Shown here one piece after another: positions 1,822-9,091 of a stretch of 64,000 bases of DNA. This DNA is from Burkholderiaceae bacterium (lineage in GTDB: Bacteria > Pseudomonadota > Gammaproteobacteria > Burkholderiales > Burkholderiaceae), in the NCBI GenBank assembly GCA_947455485.1, contig CANGNV010000003.1, positions 26,233 through 90,232 on the forward strand. Direction: 5' to 3'. Within the stretch, counting starts at the first letter, position 1; every line of letters starts with the position of its first letter. The position numbers and the translations under genes were made by a program. A model generated the notes under the pieces. It did not search any database. It saw only the letters and a program-made list of their open reading frames with translations, and was not told where the DNA came from.

Positions 1822-2805
1822 TCAATACAAACCCAGTGCTTTGGTTAATTCCGCCTTTACCCTTGTCTTAAGACTAGCCGGCCCAATTACCTCAACGCCT
1901 GATCCATGTTTCAGGATATCCATAACCAACTCGGGATCTTGGTTGTAATCAAACTCTAGGTTGTAATAACCGTCTTTATCAAAGCTGCCCACTTGCTGGC
2001 CATGCCAATGCTCGCCTGACACCCATTTTGCATGCTCAGGAGTAAAGCGTAGCTTAGCTCTTTGTGTGGCTTTACCTGAGAAGATACCGTAGCTCTGTGC
2101 AAAGTGTTCCTGACATTCTTTTTCAGAAACTTCTTGAGCTTTCTTATTGGTAAGTACTGCACTCTGAATACCATCTACAGAAAAACTCCTCAAACCATTG
2201 CGTAAGTGGCAATACGCATCGAGGTACCAGTTCTCGCGGTAATAGATTAATCGTTGAGGAGAGATTTCACGAGCAGTGTTCTCGTCTTTACCCCTAGAGT
2301 GGTAGGTGATCTCTAGACGATTACGTTTGAGTAGGGCGGCACCAATTTCAGAGAAGTTCTCAATAGAGTTCTTACGTGAACCCATGCCGATTACTTTGAT
2401 GCGTTTACGTAACTCTTTAGCTGTTGCTTCACTTTGACCAAGGATGCCATCAATGATGGCTGTAAGTGGCTCAATATGGGGTCCAATTAAACCGCCTTGA
2501 TCGAGGGAGGAGAGTAAGTGCTGCATTAGTACTAAGGCAGTAGCCTCTTTCTCGGAGAACCAGAGGCCTGGCATCTCAATCCTCTCGATCGAGGAGGAAT
2601 TCTCAAACTTATATCCACCCATGAAGCGGTCATAAACTATGGATGCCTGCATACGGCTACGCAGATACTCTAGGTCACGCTTGAAGGTAGCGGGGGAGAT
2701 CTCTAGCTCGGATAAGAAATCCTCCCTTGGAACGCATTTGCGTTGCTGAATCATGTACTTAATCCGGTGCAGACGCTCCATATCGCTCATATCAACCCAA
2801 TCCAA
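1822..2805 (-). CDS. WYL-domain transcriptional regulator (N-terminal HTH)
   Basis: N-terminal HTH (MERLHRIKYMIQQRKCVPREDFLSELEISPATFKRDLEYLR) and WYL-type core (ISPQRLIYYRENWYLDAYCHLRNGLRSFSVDGI). Confidence 0.88.
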   Translation of the reverse strand: MDWVDMSDMERLHRIKYMIQQRKCVPREDFLSELEISPATFKRDLEYLRSRMQASIVYDRFMGGYKFENSSSIERIEMPGLWFSEKEATALVLMQHLLSSLDQGGLIGPHIEPLTAIIDGILGQSEATAKELRKRIKVIGMGSRKNSIENFSEIGAALLKRNRLEITYHSRGKDENTAREISPQRLIYYRENWYLDAYCHLRNGLRSFSVDGIQSAVLTNKKAQEVSEKECQEHFAQSYGIFSGKATQRAKLRFTPEHAKWVSGEHWHGQQVGSFDKDGYYNLEFDYNQDPELVMDILKHGSGVEVIGPASLKTRVKAELTKALGLY

Positions 2806-2897
2806 AGAAGAGAAACATTTATTGTTTTTATAACTTTAGATACTTTATAGCTCATTTATTGAGCTAGTGGCAACTATGTAGTAAATACGGCGTTAAA

Positions 2898-3209
2898 TCA
2901 GCGTTTTGAAGGCGAATAACCAATCCGATTGCCATTGTTATCAAAGACATTAGTGACACCCGAGGGTGCAGTGACTTCGTAACCCATCCGCTTGCCGCTA
3001 TTGTCATAGACCCCATTAGTGGAATTCCAGTTACTGGAGCTGTTTTGCCAATTGCTAGGACTGTTCTGCCAGTTACTTGGTGAATTATTCCAATTACTTT
3101 CAGAGTTTTTCCAATTGCTTGGCGAGTTATCCCAATTTGTTGTCTGTGTAAACGCGGGTATTGCGATACCAGAGAGCAATAATGCAATGAGTAATCTACT
3201 TGTATTCAT
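2898..3209 (-). CDS. Small secreted protein with tandem SNWxNSP heptad repeats
   Basis: Signal-peptide-like N-terminus (MNTSRLLIALLLSGIAIPAFTQ) followed by NWDNSPSNWKNSESNWNNSPSNWQNSPSNWQNSSSNW. Confidence 0.6.
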   Translation of the reverse strand: MNTSRLLIALLLSGIAIPAFTQTTNWDNSPSNWKNSESNWNNSPSNWQNSPSNWQNSSSNWNSTNGVYDNSGKRMGYEVTAPSGVTNVFDNNGNRIGYSPSKR

Positions 3210-3212
3210 CTC

Positions 3213-3527
3213 TTACCAGCCTTTCACTGAGGGTACTTGAGGAGCTTGACGAGGGGCATTGATGCTTGAGTTGGGTGCTGCATAAACGGGGGCTGTTGAA
3301 GCGCCTTGATAGTTGCCTTGCGGACTATAGAAATTGGTTTGACCGTTATCCGTCTGAAACGACTGAACGTTCTGACCAGTGGCGCTGTAGATATTGGTCA
3401 CACCGCTAGGAGAGGTTTGGCTGTAACCCACATAGTTTCCGTTGGGACCATAAATAGCCTGAGCAGAAGCGCTGCGAGCCAATATGACGCACTGAGCCAC
3501 GAGAAGAAGGGTGATTAGGTATTTCAT
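3213..3527 (-). CDS. Small secreted protein sharing a PSGVTN motif block with the downstream neighbour
   Basis: Signal peptide from MKYLITLLLVAQCVILARSASAQA (start moved from 3551 to the internal Met at 3527); GNYVGYSQTSPSGVTNIYSATG matches KRMGYEVTAPSGVTNVFDNNG in the next gene; only a 3-nt gap between the genes. Confidence 0.6.
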   Translation of the reverse strand: MKYLITLLLVAQCVILARSASAQAIYGPNGNYVGYSQTSPSGVTNIYSATGQNVQSFQTDNGQTNFYSPQGNYQGASTAPVYAAPNSSINAPRQAPQVPSVKGW

Positions 3528-3604
3528 ATTGAGCTTCTGAAGAGTATTCATAACAACAGAATAAAAACCTTAAAGCTCACCTAATGAGCTAGTAGCTCAA
3601 GAAA

Positions 3605-3928
3605 ATGAAATATCTAATAAATCAACAAAAGAGCGACATGCTGACCAGTGCCTTCGTATTCATGACAATCTTGCCGCTACAGATAAGCCCAAGTAGCAAA
3701 CCAGCCCATGTGCTTGATAGGCCTCTGATGGTGTCTGCGGTAGTCGATTGCGCTCGCATACTGGGTTTGCCCAAACTAAAACTCAGGGATAGCAATGGCA
3801 ACCGCTATCAAGCAGAAAAAATCATCATGCAAGAACCCTTTGCTATCTTGCAAGCATCATCAGATCAAATGGCTTTTAACCAAACGGGTCTCAGAAAAGC
3901 TTATATTCAATCCTATGTGCTTAGATAA
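3605..3928 (+). CDS. Hypothetical small protein, possibly secreted
   Basis: ORF only; hydrophobic N-terminal stretch MLTSAFVFMTILPLQISPSSKPA from an internal Met. Confidence 0.35.
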   Translation: MKYLINQQKSDMLTSAFVFMTILPLQISPSSKPAHVLDRPLMVSAVVDCARILGLPKLKLRDSNGNRYQAEKIIMQEPFAILQASSDQMAFNQTGLRKAYIQSYVLR

Positions 3929-3951: not shown

Positions 3952-4290
3952 TCAGGACTCATTGCCTATATTTTCTTGGGAGTTGATGATGAATTTTTTT
4001 AAGCGCTCATGGCGTCCAAGATGAATCATTTCAGCTGGAGAAGTGTCGCCTAATAAGGGGTTTCTTGCCTTGAACCAGGCGCACGCTCTCGCGATATCAC
4101 CATTGAATATTTTTACGACCATCATGATGGTGTCACTAATATCTTCCGTCTTGCAAGACTCTTGTGATATCAATTCTTGTTGAATTTGCCGGGATATAGT
4201 TCTTGCGATTGCAACGGCACTAGAGTGGTCATAAAGAGATTCCTCTTTCAAGAAGTCATCGAAACTGCTGCCATTATGTTTTTTCTTCAT
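3952..4290 (-). CDS. MbcA/ParS/Xre (DUF2384)-type antitoxin-like protein
   Basis: C-terminal FNGDIARACAWFKARNPLLGDTSPAEMIHLGRHERLKKFI resembles the DUF2384 toxin-binding domain; N-term SSFDDFLKEESLYDHSSAVAIARTISRQI resembles HigA2-type starts. Start placed at MKKKHNGSS. Confidence 0.6.
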   Translation of the reverse strand: MKKKHNGSSFDDFLKEESLYDHSSAVAIARTISRQIQQELISQESCKTEDISDTIMMVVKIFNGDIARACAWFKARNPLLGDTSPAEMIHLGRHERLKKFIINSQENIGNES

Positions 4291-4515
4291 GATGATTTTC
4301 CTAGCTCGAGATTTGTCACTTAAAAAATAAATCAATGACAAAAATTTCGTTCTACAGTTTTATCAGCTGCTTGAGATAGTTGATGTCATCTTTTACTGAA
4401 AAGCTTGTAGGAAAGCATAGATATTATGAGGGGCAAAGAAAGCCAGTTTCTATGGGTCGTCTGCTTGCACATATGGAAAAAATTAGGAAAATCTGAAATA
4501 AAGTTATCTAATTAG

Positions 4516-7500
4516 TTATGCTGATCTAATGATGGATAGTCTCCTGAATATTTCAGCCGTCATGGCTTGCTTGAGTAGCCAGGTAATTTGAATTGGACGC
4601 TCCCCTTCATAAGCTTGTAAGATCGCCTCTCCAAGCGCAAGAAAGGCTGATTCATTGTTTTCTCGTACAAATAAGAAAAATTTCCAACCATTTCCACTAG
4701 CGCTCTCAATGTATCTTCGACCAGTTTTATTGCTTAAGCTTGCTTTATTTTGAGTTTGCCAATGGAATAGAGATGGGCTGATTGCATAATCGTGATACTG
4801 CACCGATTCGTTAAAGCCCTTACTTTTATCGAGAGTCACAAACATTAATTCAGTTTTGATGCCGTCTAAAGTGAGGCAGCCTTCTCGAAAGTCGGGCCTC
4901 TTAAGTGCATCTCGAAAGCCAACTGCTGTCAATATATCGGACCTTGTATACCGACAGTGGAGAGAGATTGGCCAACTGGCTGGCGCATTTTCTAATGAAA
5001 TATAGGATTTATCTGACTGATTTAGTTGCCAGTCAATTAACTCAATCAATTCATCCTTAGCGTAAGGTTGATTTATTAACTTTGTTATGAATTGGTCTGG
5101 ACTGATCGTGCCCGAAGTTATTAACTGATAGGCAAGCATTTGAGTGCGAACTAAATCGATGGGCTTGCCACTTAACGCTTCCCGCCAACAGGTTAGCAAT
5201 TCCCTGTCATCCACATAAAGGAGGCTACCAAAACGCTTGGATAATTTATCGTCTACAACGTCTATGGGATGAGAAATAAGATTACACCTTAGCTTATATT
5301 CGTTCCAGTAATGCTTGCCGTTATAAATATCACTTACTTCAATCTGATTTTCGATTAAAAAATTATTTAGAGTAATTTGTTCTCTTGACTTAGTTGATGC
5401 CCACGCAGCGAGTTCTGATGTTAGACGAAGTGAATTAAGTTTAAGAGACTTCTTAAGGCTATCAAGTACCCGTTCACGCGCCACTTTGTCAAATTGGATA
5501 TAGCATCCGGGTGGTAAGAAGCTAAATCCAGACTCAACGGCTTCCTTGATTCTTAATCTCGTTTGACCAGTGAGAGACCTAAAAAGAATATCAAATCTAA
5601 ATTCCTCCGAATAGTTGCCAATAAAATCCAATACAAGGCAGCAATCTTTCCCTATAGATAATCTGAGGCCTCTGCCAATTTGTTGTTGAAATAAGATCGG
5701 ACTCTGGGTTGGCCTAAGTAGAAGTAAGGTATTAATTTCTGGGATATCAACACCTTCATTAAATAGATCGCAGGTAAAAATCACCTTAATATTGCCAGAG
5801 GATAATTCCTTGATTGCAATATTTCGCTCGAGCTCAGATTGGGCTCCAGTCAGAGATCTTGCAGGTATATTTCTTTTATTAAAAAAATCAGCCATGAATT
5901 CAGCATGCTTTACGCTCACGCAAAACCCAATTGACTTCAAATCATCTAGGCTTGATGAGTACCTCTCAACAGCTTGATATACCGAGCGCGCTCGCACGTT
6001 GTTGGAAGATATGATGGCATCAAGTTGATTTTCAATATTTGACTTACGCCAGTCAATTGATGTTAGGTCAATATCATCATGTGTTGCATAGTATTCAAAT
6101 GGGGCAAGCAACTGCTGATCTAATGCATCCCATAGGCGGAGAGAAACTGACGGAGATCCATCAGGTCTCAAGTCAAAATATTTTCCTAGCGACATCCCAT
6201 CTGTTCTTTCGGGGGTAGCTGTCAACCCTAATAATATTTTTGGTTTAATTGATGTGGCAAATTTATCGAAAGATTGCGCTGGTAAATGATGCGCTTCATC
6301 AATAATTACCATCAGCCAGTAATCATTGCCGAGCTTATCAATTAGATTTCTGGTGTTGATAGTATTAATAGTTGCAAACAGATGTTCATATTGGGTTGGC
6401 TCATTATTACCGTCCATCAATTCACCGAAGCTCGAGTCCCGAAGTACTTGTCTAAAAGTATAAATAGCCTGCTTAAGTATTTGAACGCGATGAGCTACGA
6501 ATAGTAATTTTGGTTGCCCACCTTCCTGCCTGCATACTCTTTCGTAATCAAATGCTGCAACAACTGTCTTTCCAGTACCAGTTGCTGCAACAACTAAATT
6601 CTTTTTTCTATTTTGATCTCGCTCGGACTGGAGTCTATCTAACATCCCTTGTTGATAAAACTTAGGCCTTAATTCAAACCACGTTTGATTGGCAATAATT
6701 TCTGATGGACTAGATTTGGTAGTGAGATATTTTTGCTCATGCAGGGCCCTGTTCAGGGCTTCTCGATGACTTTCGTTATATGGGTCATAAGTCTGAAATT
6801 CAGCGTCATTCCATAAAGTCTCAAAATGTGCCTCCGCATTTTGATAGACTTGCCCGCTAGTTTTTTGTGCAATTTTAATTGTCCATTCAATTCCACTTAC
6901 TAATGCTGACTCGGATAAATTAGCGCTACCTATATAGGCAGTTCCAAAGCCAGTATCCCTTTTAAAAATCCAGGCCTTTGCGTGTAAGCGCGTTCTTCTT
7001 CCATCTAGTGAAATTTTCAATTCAACATTAGGAAGTTCGGCTAAGGAATTGACAGCCCTTGCATCAGTTGCGCCAATATATGTTGTAGTGATAAATCTAA
7101 ATTTAGTCTTTGATTTGCCTTGGGCATTAACTGACGTAATGCTCTTTAGTACATCGTAAATTTTTCTGACACCACTCCAGGTAATAAAGCTAACTAATAT
7201 GTCTACGGAATCAACGGCCTGTAGCTCGCTAATAAGCTCAGAAAGAAGTGCGGGCTCAGATTTTGATGAGCTAAATAGCCATGAGCTTCTTAGTCCTGTA
7301 ATTGGGAAAATTCCCGGTAAATTTGGTTCATGTATGGACTTTAGTAATTGCGGCGGAGTGGCTAGTAGTTCTGTGTCTTGATCTGCCTTAGCAAGCAATC
7401 TGGCTTGTTTTAATATTTCAGAAATTAGCTTAAGTTCAATTTTTGCCTTTTCGTCACTTCCATCCTTGTTTATTGATATCTGGTCTAGCAATTCAGGAAT

Positions 7501-7653
7501 TCTAGAAACTAATTCTGAAATGAGATAGCTGCGACTATTTTCTGCTGAAGGCAATTCAATGCTTGCTCGACCTTCTCGCTCCAATTCGTCAAGCTCCGGC
7601 AACTCACTTTCATAAATTAATCTATCGTATAGGCCATGCTTAAATTTTGACAT
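4516..7653 (-). CDS. PLD-nuclease / DEAD-DEAH helicase / DUF3427 protein
   Basis: PLD motif HAKAWIFKRD...GSANLS; Walker A AATGTGKT; DEAH (VIIDEAHHLPAQ); TATPERTDG; motif VI QQIGRGLRL; C-terminal DUF3427-like YHDYAISPSLFHWQTQNKASLSNKTGRRYI...FFLFVRE. Confidence 0.9.
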   Translation of the reverse strand: MSKFKHGLYDRLIYESELPELDELEREGRASIELPSAENSRSYLISELVSRIPELLDQISINKDGSDEKAKIELKLISEILKQARLLAKADQDTELLATPPQLLKSIHEPNLPGIFPITGLRSSWLFSSSKSEPALLSELISELQAVDSVDILVSFITWSGVRKIYDVLKSITSVNAQGKSKTKFRFITTTYIGATDARAVNSLAELPNVELKISLDGRRTRLHAKAWIFKRDTGFGTAYIGSANLSESALVSGIEWTIKIAQKTSGQVYQNAEAHFETLWNDAEFQTYDPYNESHREALNRALHEQKYLTTKSSPSEIIANQTWFELRPKFYQQGMLDRLQSERDQNRKKNLVVAATGTGKTVVAAFDYERVCRQEGGQPKLLFVAHRVQILKQAIYTFRQVLRDSSFGELMDGNNEPTQYEHLFATINTINTRNLIDKLGNDYWLMVIIDEAHHLPAQSFDKFATSIKPKILLGLTATPERTDGMSLGKYFDLRPDGSPSVSLRLWDALDQQLLAPFEYYATHDDIDLTSIDWRKSNIENQLDAIISSNNVRARSVYQAVERYSSSLDDLKSIGFCVSVKHAEFMADFFNKRNIPARSLTGAQSELERNIAIKELSSGNIKVIFTCDLFNEGVDIPEINTLLLLRPTQSPILFQQQIGRGLRLSIGKDCCLVLDFIGNYSEEFRFDILFRSLTGQTRLRIKEAVESGFSFLPPGCYIQFDKVARERVLDSLKKSLKLNSLRLTSELAAWASTKSREQITLNNFLIENQIEVSDIYNGKHYWNEYKLRCNLISHPIDVVDDKLSKRFGSLLYVDDRELLTCWREALSGKPIDLVRTQMLAYQLITSGTISPDQFITKLINQPYAKDELIELIDWQLNQSDKSYISLENAPASWPISLHCRYTRSDILTAVGFRDALKRPDFREGCLTLDGIKTELMFVTLDKSKGFNESVQYHDYAISPSLFHWQTQNKASLSNKTGRRYIESASGNGWKFFLFVRENNESAFLALGEAILQAYEGERPIQITWLLKQAMTAEIFRRLSIIRSA

Positions 7654-8714
7654 TACACGCTTTCTACGATCTCAACTTGGCCTGACCTAAGTTGTGCCAT
7701 ATTGGAATATTCTCCTGGCTTTATCCAGCCTGATCCGCCACCCTTGTTGGCGGCCTCATACCCCCACTTTGCGATTGCCATTGTGGTTTCAAGGTTAGCA
7801 CTAATCCCAACCTCATTTCCTATCTTCACAATTTCATCAGAGTTTTTGGCAATTAACTCAACCCATTTATTCAAATGAATATTTGCTGCCAAGGTATCTG
7901 ATTTACTTCTATTGCATGTTGGACATGCTAAGACAAAGTTATGCATCAAATCTCTTGGGTAAAGCGAGAATGGGACGAAATGGTCCACCTCCAACTTGGA
8001 AGAGGTTTTGTTGCAATAAAAACATTTGTTTCCATAGATTTCTTTAAGCCCCTTGCATACAAGCGCAAGAGTCTTTCTTGAGGTTTCAAACAAGAAGCTA
8101 TTGAGGTCATCTTTTTTCCCAAGAATGGGGGCGTTATTGGTATTTCTCTTAATGAAGTCAGTCCATCGGTTTCTAGCTAGTTGCTGAATTAAAGGCTGAA
8201 ACCGCCTTAAGCAGTAAGCCACTCCATTTTTAAGTGTGATGGAGCTTGAATTGCGCTCATAGAGGAATGGAAGGGTTGCTCCACCAACATTCTGTAGGTA
8301 ATTGATTGGTTGCTTTGCAACTGTTGCAGCAACTGCAGCAACCAGCCGTTCATATTCCTTTGAGCCCTTGGCCGATGAGGGTGAATTGAAGCGGTTGCCC
8401 TGTCTAAACGCATCAATAGACTTCACAATTGCAGCTTGAACCCCATTATTTTGGAAGAGAACGCCACTTTCATTTGCCTTAGATGTTTTATAGGGGCTCG
8501 ATTGTTGCCAGTACAGCTCTATGAATCTTTCTGCAATTGTTTTGTTGCTAATCTCCAGTCGTGAGCTATCGTCTTTTCCATGTTCAATTGCTAAATCAGC
8601 CAAGGAAATAAGCAAGGCGTACTTATAGGTAGAGCTGAAGTCGCTCTCATTGAATAGTCGTTGAATCTTTGTAAGGAAGTCGAGTTGATCTTCTGCTGAT
8701 GGGGTAGCAATCAT
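7653..8714 (-). CDS. HNH endonuclease
   Basis: CFYCNKTSSKLEVDHFVPFSLYPRDLMHNFVLACPTCNRSKSD is a canonical HNH with CxxC pairs. Start set to ATG 8714 (ATGA overlap with HIT stop) rather than 8747. Confidence 0.88.
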   Translation of the reverse strand: MIATPSAEDQLDFLTKIQRLFNESDFSSTYKYALLISLADLAIEHGKDDSSRLEISNKTIAERFIELYWQQSSPYKTSKANESGVLFQNNGVQAAIVKSIDAFRQGNRFNSPSSAKGSKEYERLVAAVAATVAKQPINYLQNVGGATLPFLYERNSSSITLKNGVAYCLRRFQPLIQQLARNRWTDFIKRNTNNAPILGKKDDLNSFLFETSRKTLALVCKGLKEIYGNKCFYCNKTSSKLEVDHFVPFSLYPRDLMHNFVLACPTCNRSKSDTLAANIHLNKWVELIAKNSDEIVKIGNEVGISANLETTMAIAKWGYEAANKGGGSGWIKPGEYSNMAQLRSGQVEIVESV

Positions 8715-9091
8715 TCCCAATACTTCGCTTTCTCGGGAATAATCCATCTCACGCCACCCCTAGGATCATCTTGATCATCCTTATATCTGGGGATGAGGTG
8801 CATATGTAGATGAGGGACAGTTTGTCCGGCTACAGGCCCATCATTAATTCCTATGTTGTATCCATCTGGATTGAGTTCATGTTGTAGGACTGTTTTAGCT
8901 CTTGCTAGAAGATCTAGAAGCGCAAGCTGTTCATCGCTTGTGATTTCAAACCAAGACCCAATATGTCGCTTCGGTATCACCAGAGTGTGGCCAGGTGAAA
9001 CAGGATAGCCATCCCGAATCGTCACGCCAAATTCATTCGAGTCAATGATTCGCTCGGCTGGCAGAGTACAGAAGGGGCATGGCTTACTCAT
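8711..9091 (-). CDS. HIT-family hydrolase
   Basis: Histidine triad HLHMHLIPRY; N-term CPFCTLPAERII. Confidence 0.92.
   Translation of the reverse strand: MSKPCPFCTLPAERIIDSNEFGVTIRDGYPVSPGHTLVIPKRHIGSWFEITSDEQLALLDLLARAKTVLQHELNPDGYNIGINDGPVAGQTVPHLHMHLIPRYKDDQDDPRGGVRWIIPEKAKYWE

Follow-up and report, generated by a model that had tools for sequence, protein, structure and literature searches.

A conserved palindrome upstream of a Polynucleobacter WYL regulator gene and nearby small-protein genes as a putative shared operator

WYL regulators are widespread, and for few of them have the operator, the regulon and the promoter mechanism been defined. The WYL activator DriD binds sites that overlap the -35 region, always equally far from the -10, in promoters whose -35 elements are poor, and the promoter region of driD itself is bidirectional (PMC12340889). 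SiwR also activates, and its palindrome spans the region from -35 to -10 (PMC10693628). BrxR represses; the 11-bp repeats to which it binds are 5 bp apart, and R-BOX1 is situated beyond the predicted -10, on its downstream side (PMC9122601). Our literature search returned nothing relevant on Polynucleobacter together with WYL, with umuDC or lexA, or on the half-site sequence described below.

Here we analysed a 64-kb stretch of DNA (the window) in which an initial annotation had noticed two copies of an operator-like element, and had proposed that a WYL protein regulates its own gene and an adjacent pair of secreted-protein genes. Our analysis makes it reasonably probable that both elements are operators of one Polynucleobacter WYL regulon, bound by the WYL protein and activating. 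The geometry of the locus is of the DriD/SiwR type and not of the BrxR type, with the palindrome over the -35 region and no consensus -35. The features of the locus are:

1822-2790, minus strand: WYL regulator with predicted HTH, WYL and WCX domains (annotated from TTG 2805; a start at ATG 2790 is likelier)
2833-2838, minus strand: predicted -10 (TAAAGT) of the WYL promoter, 10 nt past operator 1
2849-2865, minus strand: putative operator 1 (AGCTCA-ATAAA-TGAGCT), in the WYL gene promoter
2898-3209, minus strand: secB, a second small secreted-type protein with NxxxNWxN repeats
3213-3527, minus strand: secA, a small protein with a signal-peptide-like N terminus and GNYxGY-type motifs
3530-3535, plus strand: half site TGAGCT directly before the secA start codon, which may be chance
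3558-3563, minus strand: predicted -10 (TATTCT) of the secreted-protein operon, 10 nt past operator 2
3574-3590, no strand assigned: putative operator 2 (AGCTCA-TTAGG-TGAGCT on the minus strand), common to two back-to-back promoters
3594-3599, plus strand: half site AGCTCA within the 10-nt spacer of the divergent (96-aa ORF) promoter
3601-3606, plus strand: predicted -10 (GAAAAT) of the divergent gene, 10 nt past operator 2 on its opposite side
3638-3928, plus strand: conserved 96-aa ORF with a hydrophobic N terminus, divergent from secA

The presence and rarity of the palindrome were established by computation. Exact AGCTCA-N5-TGAGCT occurs twice in the window, while 100 shuffles gave a mean of 0.01 copies. 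The 27-mer consensus that the initial annotation had drawn from both places fits minus-strand positions 2842-2868 and 3567-3593 without a mismatch, with a chance expectation of 0.00, and the two extra half sites it had reported are both present. The GCTCA of the one at 3594-3599 is retained in most relatives. A scan of the own 1.65-Mb genome found no exact copy beyond the window pair, and the motif is accordingly not abundant there. The relaxed form RGCTCA-N5-TGAGCY added a single site (C3:13604-13620; L141 4604-4620), located on the same contig, 12.6 kb before the window start.

One correction concerns the regulator gene: the start at 2805 proposed earlier is less likely than ATG 2790, because the orthologues begin MSDMERL. 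Its product contains a WYL domain (PF13280, 73.5 bits against a cut-off of 21.8) and a WCX domain (PF25583, 56.1 bits, cut-off 23.9). HTH_DeoR scored 14.6 bits, under the cut-off of 21, and residues 8-67, the HTH region, were modelled as three helices and two strands with a pLDDT of about 80-90. The structure model is weak overall (pLDDT 69, pTM 0.34) and was used only to rank PDB matches, for which Foldseek placed DriD and PafBC chains above BrxR and CapW. Of the arginine pair that forms the ssDNA site of related proteins (R211/R214 in PafB, R204/R207 in SiwR), the first is kept (LRSF) and the second is Ser or Ala throughout the clade, as read from the alignment only. Since the second arginine is missing, we did not class the protein as an ssDNA sensor and left its signal unpredicted. 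The PDB contains a CapW structure with ssDNA, so that the missing residue stays compatible with nucleic-acid sensing. By analogy only, the signal may be a nucleic acid or DNA damage.

The secB gene begins 3 nt after secA, and the two probably form one operon. Site 2 sits between two divergent starts, that of secA at 3527 on the minus strand and that of the 96-aa ORF at 3638 on the plus strand. Because this divergent ORF is kept in relatives, where it belongs to the same promoter set, we consider that site 2 serves two genes. Neither secA, secB nor the 96-aa ORF had a Pfam match. Elsewhere in the same genome, C9:35092-35388 encodes a further copy of the secreted protein, with 61% identity, on a contig that lacks the exact palindrome.

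Other genes of the window resemble defence functions. Positions 4516-7653 encode a PLD-helicase-DUF3427 protein resembling type IV restriction enzymes (PADLOC PDLC03659, E 6e-192), and together with the HNH protein at 7653-8747, which has a weak likeness to PtuB, it makes up a candidate defence pair. These restriction-type genes lie 1.7 kb past the WYL start on the same strand, upstream of the WYL gene rather than downstream. A nucleotidyltransferase-like protein at 81-656 matches the PADLOC candidate family PDC-M05A (E 1e-71), and 3952-4341 gave a weak match to an Xre/MbcA/ParS antitoxin C-terminal domain, with no partner gene found for it.

The promoter geometry was computed from 72 non-redundant promoters of five families, namely the WYL genes and four small-gene families, whose flanks were aligned on the palindrome. 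The palindrome is followed, at a distance of exactly 10 nt, by a sigma70-like -10 hexamer whose two key positions are A in 70/72 and T in 68/72 promoters. The mean -10 score at this spacing was 2.7, and the best score at any spacing never rose above -1.2 in 500 shuffles; moreover, the maximum fell at spacing 10 in each of the five unrelated families taken separately. The hexamers are TAAAGT for WYL genes, TAATCT or TATTCT for the secreted and membrane families, GAAAAT for the 96-aa family and GATAAT for the 120-aa family. We found no -35 consensus 16-18 nt from the -10, as this stretch is the centre of the palindrome; with the hexamer placed at -12 to -7, the centre falls at -31. The pattern GCTCA-N5-TGAGC-N11-TAWTCT had matches in 77 genomes, and its reversed control had none. 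We rejected the TATAAA directly past the palindrome (the 'nTAArGT' of the 27-mer consensus) as the -10, since the conserved hexamer is 10 nt further.

At divergent gene pairs, both sides of the palindrome can carry a -10. In the window, site 2 has one on each side and site 1 on the WYL side only, which fits the absence here of a small membrane-type gene. That gene, of 61 aa and often divergent from WYL in relatives, is one of four nearby small secreted or membrane-type families preceded by the palindrome, the others being the secreted, the 96-aa and the 120-aa families.

The initial annotation had left conservation to be verified, and in our comparative analysis the site proved to be kept both before the secreted family and ahead of 46/48 Polynucleobacter WYL orthologues of at least 64% identity (28/30 in a first set and 18/18 in a further one). 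In the 28 of the first set it lies about 44-83 bp from the WYL start, and in one of the two exceptions (L075) it was found one gene further upstream. The site is still there at three WYL homologues of 55-56% identity (L012, L121, L126), and it is absent from a clade of 57% (55-57%) identity (L122-L125). In a paralogous clade of about 40% identity, GAGTCA-N5-TGAGAC stands before the clade's own genes, also 10 nt ahead of GAAAAT, and helix residues of the DNA-binding domain differ between WYL clades. Operator and protein clade therefore change together, as autoregulation predicts. Homologues below 45% identity (Desulfobulbaceae and others) shared no common N5-spacer palindrome at their start codons. 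At one locus (L107 17036-17554), a 133-aa WYL-domain protein without a DNA-binding domain has a palindrome site about 100 nt upstream.

Across 187 Polynucleobacter genomes we counted 167 palindrome (N5) sites against 67 control sites with an N6 spacer. The 71 genomes with a WYL homologue carry 1.49 N5 and 0.25 N6 sites per genome, against 0.53 and 0.42 in the 116 genomes that lack one. Of the N5 sites, 31/76 lie within 25 kb of a WYL gene, as compared with none of the 29 N6 sites that were checked, which are a part of all N6 sites. The presumed tie between motif and WYL genes is hence borne out where a WYL gene exists, as clustering at the WYL locus, and is loosened by a copy linked to umuDC that is intact in at least 29 genomes classed as WYL-less.

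This third site is the one at C3:13604-13620, located 3' of umuC and before a conserved 43-aa gene found in 122/187 genomes. A perfect palindrome with a correctly spaced -10 precedes the small gene in 21/34 WYL-carrying and 29/68 WYL-less genomes (p = 0.09), counts from which 8/30 loci that could not be placed were left out; nearly all loci without a perfect palindrome have no palindrome at all. Genomes were taken as WYL-less when they had no homologue at E 1e-70 or better. The WYL Pfam model detected no WYL protein in the 13 WYL-less genomes with the site to which it was applied, and a profile of the DNA-binding domain gave no convincing match in the 16 that were checked with it. We rejected umuDC itself as a target, because the site lies beyond the 3' end of umuC and a separate, perfect LexA-type box (CTGT-N8-ACAG) directly precedes umuD, at L141 2737-2752. 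The umuDC operon is probably under ordinary SOS control.

As a perfect copy persists in no fewer than 29 genomes where no WYL orthologue was detected, the WYL protein may not be the sole reader of the palindrome. Two explanations offer themselves: a WYL gene that is accessory within species and frequently regained, or a second regulator that recognises the same palindrome. Taken to its end, the latter option would make a different, core regulator the reader everywhere, with the WYL gene merely one of its targets. We hold this to be quite unlikely, even though the palindrome arms at the umuDC-linked gene are perfect in those WYL-less genomes while the spacer bases vary, and the presence of the site there hardly depends on WYL. 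The remaining sites of WYL-less genomes are near the chance level of the N6 control, the small-gene copy already making up part of the N5 count. Furthermore, in the diverged WYL clade the palindrome has diverged as well but keeps its position, and a comparison of 12 small-gene regions that have the site with 8 that lack it revealed no candidate for a regulator gene marking the locus. We also entertain, as a tentative and rather doubtful scenario, that the palindrome 3' of umuC represents an older, genus-wide promoter class served by a second regulator where WYL is absent, and that an accessory WYL regulator adopted this operator and spread it to small secreted and membrane genes. If true, two unrelated regulators would make use of a common operator code with a link to DNA damage.

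Returning to the WYL protein, which is most likely the binder, we propose that it binds RGCTCA-N5-TGAGCY as a dimer. As the palindrome fills the -35 region with the -10 hexamer exactly 10 bp on, the bound protein would stand in for the missing -35 and recruit RNA polymerase-sigma70, in the manner of DriD and SiwR. The promoters activated in this way would be those of the WYL gene itself, of the secreted-protein operon and of the gene divergent from it, the single palindrome of site 2 serving two back-to-back promoters. The effect is most likely activation. The same operator and the same protein could instead repress, by covering the -35 and blocking RNA polymerase until a signal releases it, which is how BrxR and CapW act in defence islands. 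A palindrome overlapping the promoter would suit such steric blocking, the neighbouring type IV restriction-type helicase and HNH genes are defence-like, the R-x-F-S of the WYL domain resembles CapW, and the BrxR repeats have the same 5-bp spacing (PMC9122601). However, a repressed promoter needs a -35 of its own, and there is none at the appropriate distance from the -10; the strict 10-nt distance in five families would be expected of polymerase contact rather than of simple blocking; R-BOX1 of BrxR is on the other side of its -10; and the closest solved structures are those of activators. Repression is on these grounds an unlikely reading.

Very improbable is an origin of the two copies by chance similarity, as a terminator hairpin or through recent local duplication, for which one might cite that the arms could pair into a 6-bp hairpin stem closed by a 5-nt loop and that the copies are just 0.7 kb apart. 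Chance is excluded by the shuffles, the N6 control counts and the reversed-pattern control. We rejected a terminator because no consistent T-run follows the palindrome, the -10 hexamer being found there instead. Spacer and flanks differ between the copies while the arms are kept in distant relatives, which indicates selection and not a recent copy.

Considering all the above results, the proposal that the WYL protein controls its own gene and the secreted pair is strongly backed by the comparative evidence as far as shared, conserved control is concerned, with activation as the likely effect; the umuDC-linked copy in WYL-less genomes speaks against its being the whole account, and at that locus one of the refuting outcomes named in the initial annotation does apply. 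Beyond the initial annotation, we add that the geometry favours activation, that site 2 also serves the divergent gene and that a third site exists at umuDC.

Altogether, comparison of up to 187 genomes defines, for a WYL clade not described before, a putative operator, the exact geometry of its promoters and a list of predicted targets, and the DriD-type activation model becomes directly testable outside Caulobacter. The small secreted or membrane-type targets lie near restriction-like genes and, beyond the window, near an SOS operon, which suggests a stress or defence response that has yet to be characterised. Polynucleobacter is an abundant freshwater genus, and the intact site in its regulator-less species poses a concrete question.

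Among described systems, BrxR and CapW resemble the present case in that these WYL regulators, too, have a palindromic operator ahead of their own gene, in some cases with a 5-bp spacer, and defence-like neighbours. They rank lower in structure than DriD and PafBC, and the BrxR operator is downstream of the -10, while here it is over the -35 and ends 10 nt upstream of the -10. PafBC of mycobacteria, the top PDB match by phmmer (E 3.5e-16), is likewise an activator, acting together with a sigma factor; it differs in being a heterodimer and in acting at -26, and its two-arginine ssDNA site is incompletely conserved in our clade. SiwR of Mycobacterium smegmatis is an activator with a palindrome between the -35 and -10 of the adjacent operon. 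It has one known target operon and requires two WYL-domain arginines, the second of which is Ser or Ala here.

DriD shares several features with the present regulator. It is likewise an HTH-WYL-WCX protein of about 330 aa; its palindrome-like operator covers the -35, keeps a constant distance to a weak -10 and also occurs ahead of driD; the promoter is bidirectional, and a small membrane protein, DidA, is among the targets (PMC12340889, PMC4211646). The two proteins are only weakly similar by phmmer (E about 1e-3 to 2e-4), and their operator sequences differ by every indication. DriD targets recJ, dnaG and bapE, whereas small proteins of the secreted or membrane type predominate among the targets here. 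Finally, DriD activates the operon divergent from driD and is reportedly not positioned to activate driD, in contrast to the geometry described here, which predicts that the WYL regulator activates its own gene.
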